DNA from: Acidobacteriota bacterium
GTDB lineage: Bacteria > Acidobacteriota > Terriglobia > Versatilivoradales > Versatilivoraceae
DNA length: 47,856 nt
Assembly: GCA_022821775.1 (NCBI GenBank)
Contig: JAJECY010000280.1
Location: forward strand, 1-47,856
Reading direction: 5' to 3'
Numbering within the stretch: position 1 is the first letter of the stretch; every line of letters begins with the position of its first letter. Below are positions 18,389-27,549 of this stretch, one piece after another. The notes under the pieces are model-generated. The model did no database searches. It was given only the letters and a program-made list of their open reading frames with translations, and was not told where the DNA came from. The position numbers were made by a program, and so were the translations under genes.

Positions 18389-18409
18389 AATTAGGTGGAG
18401 AGTGGGCCG

Positions 18410-19144
18410 ATGACGGACGATGCCGCCGTGGTCGTCGAGAACGCGGAAAAATGGTTCGGGCTCAACCCGGCCCTGGCGAACGTTTCCCTGCTCGTCCACC
18501 CAGGTGAGTTCGTGGTGTTGCTGGGTCGCAACGGGGCCGGGAAGTCGACCTTGCTGCGGGTCATGGCTCGATTGGTGAAGCCCAACCGGGGCCGGGTGCG
18601 GATTTGCGGCGTGGATGTCGCCCGGGATCCCGAGCGCGGGAGGGAGCGGATCGGCCTGGTGGCCCACCAGACCTTTCTCTATCCCGGCTTGACCGCCAGA
18701 GAGAACCTGCGGCTGCACGCCCGGCTGCACGGGCTGGAGGGAGCCGGCGATCGGATCGCCGCCGCCCTGACCGATGCCGGGTTGGACCTGAGCGCCGACC
18801 GTCCCGTTCGCGGCTTCTCCCGCGGGATGCAGCAGCGCCTGGCCATTGCCCGGGCTACGCTGCACGGGCCTGAGCTGGTGCTGCTGGATGAACCCTTCAC
18901 CGGTCTCGACCTGGAAGCGGCCGAGCTCCTTTCGGAACGGCTGCGGCAATGGGCGGCAGCCGGGCGAACCATCGTCATGGCCACCCACAACCTGGATCAG
19001 GGTCTGGAGGGAGTCACCCGCTGGGTCCTTCTGGACCGCGGCCGCATTGTAACCGAATGGACCGGCGACTCCACGGCGGCTCGAAGCCGCTACCGGCAGT
19101 TCCTGAAAGGAGTTCCTCCCGGCTCGGAGGGGCTAAGGAACTGA
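18410..19144 (+). CDS. ccmA: CcmA haem exporter ATP-binding protein
   Basis: This is the ATPase of the CcmAB(CD) complex that releases haem-loaded CcmE. The 244-residue ABC protein shows the Walker A LLGRNGAGKSTLLR near residue 40, the signature RGFSRGMQQRLAIARA, the Walker B LVLLDEPFTGLD and the switch His in MATHN. The start at 18410 has AGGTGGAG about 10 bases upstream; a GTG at 18395 is also in frame. The gene begins right after an inverted family A repeat, so the 305-base gap from the previous gene is made of repeats inside the operon. Confidence 0.95.
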   Translation: MTDDAAVVVENAEKWFGLNPALANVSLLVHPGEFVVLLGRNGAGKSTLLRVMARLVKPNRGRVRICGVDVARDPERGRERIGLVAHQTFLYPGLTARENLRLHARLHGLEGAGDRIAAALTDAGLDLSADRPVRGFSRGMQQRLAIARATLHGPELVLLDEPFTGLDLEAAELLSERLRQWAAAGRTIVMATHNLDQGLEGVTRWVLLDRGRIVTEWTGDSTAARSRYRQFLKGVPPGSEGLRN

Positions 19145-20205: not shown

Positions 20206-20928
20206 GTGAACGGTTTCTTACAATTTCGGGTGCGGCCTGGTGAGAAATACGGGCTAGGACTGCTGGCCCTGTTGGCGATGATGGCGGCTCTCTACGCCAT
20301 TTTTGTGTTGGCGCCGGTGGAACTCACCATGGGGATCGTGCAGAAGATCTTCTACTTCCACGTGGCTTCCGCCTGGGTGGGCTTCCTGGCCATCTACCTG
20401 GTGTGCTTCTGCAGCCTCCGGTTCCTGCGGAAACGCGACCGCCAATGGGACGTTCGGGCCGCCTCGGCGGCCGAGGTGGGCGCGGTCTTCCTGACGCTCA
20501 ACCTCGTCAGCGGTCCCATCTGGGCCAAGCCGGTGTGGGGGATCTGGTGGACCTGGGATGCCCGGCTCACCACCACCTTCGTTCTCTGGCTGATCTACAT
20601 GGGCTACCTGATGCTGCGCCGCCTGGTGGAATCACCGGAACAACGGGCAAGATTGAGCGCCGTCGTCAGCATATTCGGCGCCGTGAACGCCCTGATTGTC
20701 TACATGGCCAACCGCTGGTGGCGGACCCAGCACCCCCAACCCGTGATCGCCGGAGGCGAGGACTCCGGCTTGCATCCGGACATGATGTTGGCCCTGATGG
20801 TGACTTTGCTGGCTTTAACTCTGCTCTTCTTTTGCCTCTGGAAAATGGGGTGCGACCTGGAACGGAGCCGGGAATCGGTCGAGAGTCTCCGGCGGACGGC
20901 CCAGCGCCACCTGAGGGAGGTCCAATGA
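20206..20928 (+). CDS. ccmC: CcmC haem handling protein
   Basis: CcmC loads haem onto CcmE. The 240-residue product has six membrane segments and the WWD motif VWGIWWTWDARLT near residues 109 to 121, with conserved histidines in FYFHVASAW and near the later HPQPV loop. The start is a GTG at 20206, preceded by AAAGAAGGG about 20 bases away, so the ribosome binding site is weak. Its TGA overlaps the ccmD ATG (ATGA). Confidence 0.95.
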   Translation: MNGFLQFRVRPGEKYGLGLLALLAMMAALYAIFVLAPVELTMGIVQKIFYFHVASAWVGFLAIYLVCFCSLRFLRKRDRQWDVRAASAAEVGAVFLTLNLVSGPIWAKPVWGIWWTWDARLTTTFVLWLIYMGYLMLRRLVESPEQRARLSAVVSIFGAVNALIVYMANRWWRTQHPQPVIAGGEDSGLHPDMMLALMVTLLALTLLFFCLWKMGCDLERSRESVESLRRTAQRHLREVQ

Positions 20929-25370: not shown

Positions 25371-26768
25371 TCAGTGCTTGATGGCTTCCCAGTAGGACAC
25401 GAACTCGAACTCGGGACTGTTGGACGGATTGTGGCAAGTCACACAGGAATTCGGCCCCAGCGGTTCCATCCTGGACACGGTCGGCTGCCGGCTGTGTTCC
25501 CGACCCTGACCGTGACAGGCCTCACACTGGACATTGGCCAGGTGGGCGGTGCGATAGAGGTCTTCAAACCCGCCCGGCTGCCCCGAACCGGTCACGTGGC
25601 AGATGACGCACTGGGTATCGAATTCCTTTCTTTCCCTGATCAGGATGTCGATGGCATGGGCGTGGCCCGAGCTCTCCCAGACCTGAAACGCATCCGCATG
25701 GCACGTCCCGCAGGTTTGAGAGGTCACGAAATCGGAATCCGCGTGGTCCCGGCGGCTGCCGTGGCTGTGGCCATGGCCGTGGTCGTGGCCGTGGTCGTGC
25801 GCATGGGCGGTGCTCTTGGCCATCTCGGTCTGCCTGGCCGAGATGTCGGCTTTGGCTTTCACCATGAAGGCAGCGATATCGGGGTCGTCGGCCACCCGCC
25901 GGGTCAAACGGTGATTCAAGGGCTGCACTGCGGGCCGGCCCGACTTCAGGGAAAAGCGCAGCTCTCCCAGGCTCTTGGCTTCGTCTTCGGCGTAGACGAT
26001 GGTGGACCGGCTGATCTTGATGGGGGCCATTGCCGATTGATGCTCGAATCCGTTGAGAATCATGTCGATGCCCTTATGGTCGATAGCCAACTGGATGGCG
26101 TCGCCAAGGGGCATGCAGGCCAGTGCAATCACGTAGTCGCACTTCTCTCTCAACTCGGGCAGCCATTTTTCGGCGCTCTCGGATGGATTCTCCCAGCGGT
26201 AGCTCGCGCCGGTCTTGGAGGAATGCTTGCTGACCGCAAATCCGATGAAGCCGACCCGGACAGCGGGGGCGGAAGGCGCCGGCGGCATGGTCTTGATCAC
26301 ATAGGGATCGAGCAGCGGATCGCCGGTTTGGCCGGAAAGCAGGTTGGCGGAAACAAACCGCCCGTTCTTGCTCAGCTCCACACCGAGGGCCTGAAGCTCC
26401 TCAATGTCATTGCCCCCGATGTTGAAGACCTCGATCCCAAGCAACTCCATCCCCTTCCACAGCCACTCGTTCTTGACCGCCCGATCGGGGCCCAGCCGCT
26501 GCATGAAGTTGCCGATCTCCACCTGGAGGGCGGGACGGCCGGGAAACTCCCGGATCCTCTCCCTGATGACCTGTGCTCGGCGAGCAAGACCGCCCGCGGG
26601 ATTGCGCGGTCAGCCGCAGGGTTCGAGATTCCCCCGCACGTTTCCGGTAAAATAGATGCTGAAGTCGAAGTCGGAACTCTGGAGCTGCGGCGCCGATCGG
26701 ACCTGGCCAATGACGGCCAGCATGGACAGAACCAAGCCGGCGCCATAGCGCAAACGCCTATCGATCAA
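25371..26768 (-). CDS. Exported UshA-like tetrahaem cytochrome, probable selenoprotein (TGA at codon 53)
   Basis: I read one 465-residue protein from a TTG at 26768, with AGGAGG 9 bases upstream. It has a signal peptide (RRLRYGAGLVLSMLAVIG, cut near RSA), then the UshA-like motif FTGNVRGNLEPCG, an in-frame TGA at 26612 to 26610 (codon 53), then PRNPAGGLARRAQV. Relatives carry EPCGC at this place (from memory), so TGA replaces a Cys codon. The frame stays open on both sides. Further on are a His-rich linker (about residues 320 to 345) and four c-haem motifs: CGTCH (353), CVICH (387), CEACH (415) and CVTCH (442). A SECIS-like hairpin starts 12 bases after the TGA. The alternative is a broken gene or a downstream start at 26522, which would lose the signal peptide needed for haem attachment. 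Confidence 0.8.
26580..26612 (-). promoter_or_regulatory. SECIS-like hairpin just after the in-frame TGA
   Basis: On the transcript, 12 bases after UGA, GCGGGC (26597 to 26592) pairs with GCUCGC (26585 to 26580) through six pairs, one of them G-U. The apical loop is GGUCUU. The loop begins 18 bases after UGA. The E. coli fdhF element, from memory, has loop AGGUCU about 17 bases after UGA. A G at the first loop position fits the bacterial SECIS rule. Confidence 0.65.
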
Positions 26769-26952
26769 TGGAAAAATCCTCCTCGCAGGCAGGTCCGTAC
26801 CGGGTGGCTGGAACCACGGAAGGGACCTTTTCTATCATACCGCCCGGAAGATTGTAAACCGGGCCGATCCGGGCTTGGCCGGCAGGCGCATCGTCAGCCC
26901 GGCCACTCCATGGCAATCGCTTTCGGAAAGCTCTCCAAGGACCTCCAACCAC

Positions 26953-27549
26953 ATGCCCGCCGGACTCGAATCACACTCTCCACGCCTGATTTTAGCATCC
27001 GCCTCGCCCAGAAGACAGGAGCTGATGAAGCTGCTCCGGTTCGACTTCGCAGTCCGTGTCAGCGGCGTGCCGGAGGAACCGCAGAGGGGCGAGTCTCCGG
27101 CCCAACTGGTGATGCGTCTGGCCCGGGCCAAGGCCGAAGCCATCCGCGACACCCGGCCCGACGTCTGGGTGATAGGAGCCGACACGGTGGTGGTCTGCGG
27201 CCCCGAGGTTCTGGGAAAGCCGGAATCGCCGGCGGCGGCGGGGGAGATGCTGCGGAAGCTGAGCGGCCGCACCCATCAGGTGTTGACGGGCATCTGCATC
27301 CGGCACGGGCAACTCCGGCATGCCAGCTTCGTCGAGACCACCGTCCGCTTCGCGGCGCTTTCCGATAGAGACATCCAGGGATACGTGGCCACCGGCGAGC
27401 CCCTGGGGAAGGCCGGCGCCTATGGGATTCAAGGCTACGCCTGCCGGTTCATTCAGGACATCCACGGCTGCTACTTCAACGTCGTCGGCCTGCCCCTGGC
27501 CCACCTCCACCGGACACTCATGCAATTGGGGTTCCCGGCCGATGGATAA
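26953..27549 (+). CDS. maf: Maf-family nucleotide pyrophosphatase
   Basis: Maf proteins hydrolyse non-canonical nucleoside triphosphates and limit septum formation in some bacteria. The 198-residue product has the LILASASPRRQELM motif near residue 10 and GADTVVV near residue 70, with KPESPAAAGEMLRKLSGRTH and the C-terminal YGIQGYACRFI. The start at 26953 gives the family length; the open frame to 26875 is longer than usual. Its stop overlaps the start of the NFACT gene by 8 bases. Confidence 0.94.
   Translation: MPAGLESHSPRLILASASPRRQELMKLLRFDFAVRVSGVPEEPQRGESPAQLVMRLARAKAEAIRDTRPDVWVIGADTVVVCGPEVLGKPESPAAAGEMLRKLSGRTHQVLTGICIRHGQLRHASFVETTVRFAALSDRDIQGYVATGEPLGKAGAYGIQGYACRFIQDIHGCYFNVVGLPLAHLHRTLMQLGFPADG

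Follow-up and report, generated by a model that had tools for sequence, protein, structure and literature searches.

A probable exported tetrahaem UshA-like selenoprotein with a PCGU motif in an Acidobacteriota genome

The window analyzed here is a 47,856-nucleotide stretch of an Acidobacteriota contig. Its minus strand carries a frame for 465 residues that starts at a TTG codon (positions 26768 to 26766), ends at a TGA stop codon (25373 to 25371), and is interrupted once, by a single internal TGA at residue 53 (Table 1). After a signal peptide and the residues EPCG comes the TGA; the residues PRNPAGGLARR follow it, then a long domain, a stretch rich in His, and four CXXCH motifs. Re-reading the frame bore out the coordinates, the strand, and the AGGAGG/TTG start given in the original prediction. 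Standard ORF calling reports a product at positions 25371 to 26522, beginning at a GTG codon 3' of the TGA; as a result of this internal start, the called product has neither the signal peptide nor the CGU motif. A 664-codon open frame on the opposite strand (window positions 25374 to 27368, plus strand) spans the entire gene; this antisense frame probably arises from GC-rich codon usage, but gene callers could be misled by it.

TABLE 1 Features of the window, with the basis for each assignment
Feature	Positions	Strand	Basis
Complete predicted selenoprotein gene running from the TTG to the TGA stop (465 residues, Sec at residue 53)	25371..26768	-	Sequence and homologues
Ribosome-binding site AGGAGG, 9 nt 5' of the TTG	26778..26783	-	Sequence
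Signal peptide, residues 1-26 (MIDRRLRYGAGLVLSMLAVIGQVRSA)	26691..26768	-	By eye; low-confidence N-terminus in the structure model
Metallophosphoesterase domain of the 5'-nucleotidase/SoxB type (residues 34-325), degenerate, with other residues in place of the metal ligands	25794..26669	-	Profiles and predicted fold
TGA codon, Sec 53 within the invariant C-G-U motif	26610..26612	-	Homologue alignment
Putative bSECIS hairpin, 24-42 nt from the TGA	26571..26589	-	Covariation
His-rich linker (HAHDHGHDHGHGHSHGSRRDH), residues 322-342, between the two domains	25743..25805	-	Alignment
Haem motif 1, CGTCH, residues 353-357	25698..25712	-	Sequence, alignment
Haem motif 2, CVICH, residues 387-391	25596..25610	-	Sequence, alignment
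Haem motif 3, CEACH, residues 415-419	25512..25526	-	Sequence, alignment
Haem motif 4, CVTCH, residues 442-446	25431..25445	-	Sequence, alignment
Cytochrome c assembly protein (CcmC type)	20206..20925	+	Pfam Cytochrom_C_asm
ABC transporter ATPase, possibly CcmA-like (by position)	18395..19141	+	Pfam ABC_tran; adjoins the cytochrome c assembly gene

Using the read-through protein as the query, we searched 12 genomes from four genera of the host family. Every genome yielded a homologue, interrupted in each case by a single in-frame TGA at the identical residue. The 11 other genomes of the family all share this TGA, and one of them is a single 5.1-Mb contig; neither a sequencing error nor a private lesion can therefore explain it. 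Between sister genera, the stretch upstream of the TGA (residues 34 to 52) shows 9 to 14 third-position changes versus 1 to 3 amino acid changes, and, judged by these substitutions, it is under strong purifying selection. One homologue (L042, G011:C23:9457-10728) was matched in two pieces, with approximately 45 residues missing after LARRAN; the gap is probably a local misassembly or deletion.

A profile search across the phylum yielded a match in 236 of 396 genomes, many to the haem part alone, and 81 members were fetched and aligned for comparison of residue 53. Of these members, 61 have TGA at this residue and 20 have a Cys codon (TGC or TGT); no other state occurred, in line with the original prediction, which had placed the TGA exactly where relatives have Cys. 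On a maximum-likelihood tree built without the residue-53 column, there were at least 10 changes between the Sec and Cys states, 7 of them forced by strongly supported branches alone. Switching was also seen inside a single family (TGA in L084, Cys in L076 and L079).

The sel genes that such decoding implies were sought in the same genome, and all were present: a tRNA-Sec with a TCA anticodon (contig C74), selB above the cut-off (C228), selA (C56), and selD (C108). Further tRNA-Sec matches above the cut-off (C174 and C17) were identified as tRNA-Ser by ARAGORN and dropped. The host selA (G000:C56:5613-6978; L025 and L029) is split by one extra A in a six-A run (CTGAAAAAAGGTC), across which congeners read CTGAAGAAGGTC or a close variant with the frame open; selA is intact in nine relatives, and the 1-nt indel is restricted to the host assembly. 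Given the open frame of the congeners, the indel is likely an assembly error, with slippage on the A run as a possible alternative. The host selD (G000:C108:26116-27042, L030) has an in-frame TGA within its CAGU motif, making SelD itself a likely selenoprotein. Across 55 genomes of the phylum, selA accompanied the Sec form in 36 of 36 cases and the Cys form in 17 of 19, so that both genomes lacking selA carry the Cys form.

We also searched for a bSECIS-type hairpin 3' of the TGA. Single-sequence folding of this region of the window was no better than that of shuffled sequences (z scores of -0.13 and -0.47), and covariation was used in its place; an Rfam scan of the window gene gave no match. 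Numbered from the T of the TGA, a covarying hairpin was found with positions 24 to 31 paired to positions 35 to 42. Three of its pairs (24-42, 27-39, and 30-36) connect third codon positions at both ends and are therefore hardly constrained by the protein sequence. In 50 distinct Sec genes, these wobble-wobble pairs were Watson-Crick in 106 of 150 cases (permutation mean, 49; maximum in 5,000 permutations, 72), whereas 18 Cys genes gave 15 of 54 against 17 expected. All four Watson-Crick types were represented among the Sec genes at pair 30-36 (CG, 23; TA, 9; AT, 5; GC, 5). Counts over the pairs of the structure in 43 rows gave 45 double-change cells versus 14.9 after shuffling, and the covariation score for these rows was 0.359 versus no more than 0.192 in slid controls. 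Shuffling ignores relatedness; the Cys genes, although fewer, are therefore the more informative control, and they show no such signal. Synonymous-site covariation 3' of the TGA, for which the Cys homologues serve as an internal negative control, provides a cleaner test for a bSECIS than folding energy.

In the window gene itself, the core of the hairpin, at positions 26586 to 26574, is a 5-bp stem (TGCTC/GAGCA) closed by a GCC loop. Its loop, stem length, and spacing of 28 nt fit the constraints of the bSECIS model (PMC13188914). The isolated stem, at -5.4 to -7.0 kcal/mol, is slightly weaker than the limit of that model (-7.5), and four of the five sister-genus rows (L044-L047) do not form pair 30-36. 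For these two reasons, a functional hairpin in this particular gene is probable rather than proven.

Comparative evidence from conservation, alternation with Cys, the covarying hairpin, and the sel genes thus supports the original proposal for residue 53 and confirms, at the level of sequence, the decoding of UGA codon 53 as selenocysteine, with TGA as a sense codon. The competing view takes the TGA for a true stop, a sequencing error, or the lesion of a pseudogene, with a shorter protein started at the internal GTG as the product. Such a product is what automatic ORF calling gives, and the selA indel is another 1-nt problem in the same assembly. This view is nevertheless extremely improbable: it is opposed by a TGA that is conserved between genera and, alternating with Cys, throughout the phylum, by the purifying selection on the frame 5' of it, and by a hairpin that covaries in TGA-bearing genes only, and the short form would have no signal peptide despite its four haem motifs.

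The best NCBIfam match of the protein was NF041198 (UshA_like_PCGU, "UshA-like (seleno)protein"; E = 8.9e-70, 235.7 bits, in two stretches), the family whose name the original prediction had correctly given. The score is below the curated cut-off of 275 bits, which places the protein formally outside the curated call. It shares one tree, however, with proteins that pass the cut-off, and all 48 aligned haem-bearing members match NF041198. Of 10 relatives scanned singly, 3 reached the cut-off (L075, 282.5 bits; L081, 275.1 bits; L144, 348.5 bits), while the window protein and the two host family relatives tested scored 235.7 to 254.9 bits; annotation pipelines would consequently probably not name these proteins. 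The PCG[U/C] motif that characterizes NF041198, located after the first strand, is present as EPCGU. The window protein has in common with the family the two-domain layout, the CGU motif, and the haem C-terminus, and it differs by its sub-cut-off score and by a His-rich linker confined to one genus. A second model, NF049981 ("UshA-like (seleno)protein family 2"), matched the N-terminal domain weakly (29.5 bits; cut-off, 140); with 262 positions, it is too short to include the haem domain, and its family is reported to have a CxxU motif (PMC13188914). The UshA-like family has been listed as a CxU selenoprotein (PMC13188914, PMC9312934) and as COG0737 UshA-like (PMC2398784).

These results give good support for the window gene as a divergent, probably uncalled member of the known NF041198 family; it adds a member to that family and is not a new kind of system. 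The fusion to a haem domain, which had been singled out as unusual, is not new: positions 344 to 518 of the NF041198 profile match the domain, and profile positions 357 to 518 align to residues 288 to 456 of the protein, with its four CXXCH motifs, so the fusion belongs to the known family. What is new here is the uncalled branch, the genus-only linker, the loss of all seven phosphoesterase metal ligands compared, and the covariation support for a bSECIS. In Acidobacteriota, this known selenoprotein family extends beyond the proteins that the NCBI model calls.

The AlphaFold model of the protein was confident (pLDDT, 87.9; pTM, 0.87), and its N-terminal fold matched those of UshA, SoxB, and CD73 (Foldseek match to 1hp1: E value, 3.3e-18; probability, 1.00). 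Kinship with SoxB was also indicated by TIGR04486, which 39 of the 48 haem-bearing members matched, and by fold matches to 2wdc and 4uwq. The metallophosphoesterase fold is common to the window protein, SoxB, and the UshA/CD73 5'-nucleotidases; unlike these enzymes, the window protein has neither the metal ligands nor the C-terminal nucleotidase domain, and it adds the Sec/Cys motif and the haem domain. Seven ligand residues (DxH, GD, GNH, and a later His) were compared by HMM alignment. The corresponding residues of the window protein are N43, R45, N87, G119, N120, C218, and F241, with none of the seven ligands kept, and among the 48 haem-bearing members 44 have two or fewer and no member has more than three. 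The N-terminal residues invariant in all 48 are G46, C51, G52, residue 53 (U or C), G59, G60, and G86.

The clear 5'-nucleotidase homology and the matching fold would suit a protein that is still a metal-dependent UshA-like phosphoesterase or nucleotidase. In such a protein, Sec/Cys would have a structural role or act as an unusual metal ligand, and the haem domain would be a tether or an independent module. The ligand counts given above, the conservation centered on CG[U/C], and the position of the haem domain, which stands in place of the C-terminal nucleotide-binding domain of the 5'-nucleotidases, all speak against such a protein, and we regard it as very unlikely. Nucleotide hydrolysis by the window protein is likewise unlikely.

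The C-terminal haem domain matches cytochrome c554 (PF13435, PDB 1bvb; 55.6 bits; 8e-20 by profile); in contrast to cytochrome c554, it is joined here to the UshA-like domain, as the C-terminal module of one protein. In the 48 haem-bearing members, all four CXXCH motifs, W364, H369, G420, and H465 are invariant, and H425 is present in 47; the three histidines H369, H425, and H465 could be distal haem ligands. The His-rich linker, to which the original prediction had drawn attention, is present as claimed in every aligned member of the genus of the host but is absent from the three sister genera, and is thus a peculiarity of one genus. Metal binding is a possible role.

We consider it highly probable that the gene encodes an exported tetrahaem UshA-like (PCGU) selenoprotein in which CGU is a periplasmic redox center coupled to the haems. 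According to this model, codon 53 would be read as Sec by way of the downstream hairpin, tRNA-Sec, SelA, SelB, and SelD, and the protein would be exported before its haems are attached in the periplasm by Ccm machinery. The CcmC-type gene, approximately 5 kb away in the window, is as expected if the haems are attached after export. The C-G-U near the N-terminus of a phosphoesterase fold devoid of metal ligands could then form a selenenyl-sulfide/selenolate redox center, and the four c-type haems at the C-terminus may carry electrons between this center and a substrate or partner in the periplasm. In this view, selenol/thiol redox chemistry, coupled to the haems, would have taken the place of hydrolytic chemistry. 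That the phosphoesterase fold has been turned, in a family found widely within one phylum and with repeated Sec/Cys switching, into a periplasmic selenium-haem oxidoreductase, with CG[U/C] and four haems replacing the dinuclear metal site, is a plausible but tentative proposal. With its natural Sec/Cys pairs and its lost metal site, the family is a tractable one for asking why an exported haem protein keeps selenium.

Because SoxB is among the nearest fold relatives, a sulfur compound would be the leading guess for the substrate, and we offer it as a guess. A narrower form of the oxidoreductase proposal would have the protein act like SoxB on sulfur compounds (carrier-bound sulfane or thiosulfonate) and pass the electrons to the haems. 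SoxB is among the best relatives in sequence as well as in fold, and a CGU motif would be well suited to S-S or S-Se exchange; on the other side, the metal ligands of SoxB are missing, and SoxY (TIGR04488) was unmatched in the 12 host family genomes, although the control genomes were likewise silent, so that this absence is not proof. On balance, SoxB-like action appears rather unlikely. The conserved gene order around the gene consists of housekeeping genes (Maf upstream, DciA and gatCA downstream) and hence gives no clue to the substrate.

Searches with the protein found no relatives in IMG/VR viral contigs and, in PLSDB plasmids, three distant nucleotidases alone (22 to 28% identity). Approximately 25 relatives (L146-L171 except L150) have the CG[U/C] domain without haem motifs. 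In the stretches fetched around haem-less relatives, no multihaem gene lies directly downstream on the same strand except in L150; that single candidate for a separate cytochrome was rejected, as it is apparently a split or frameshifted gene. The existence of haem-less relatives indicates that haems are not required by every form of the Sec/Cys domain.
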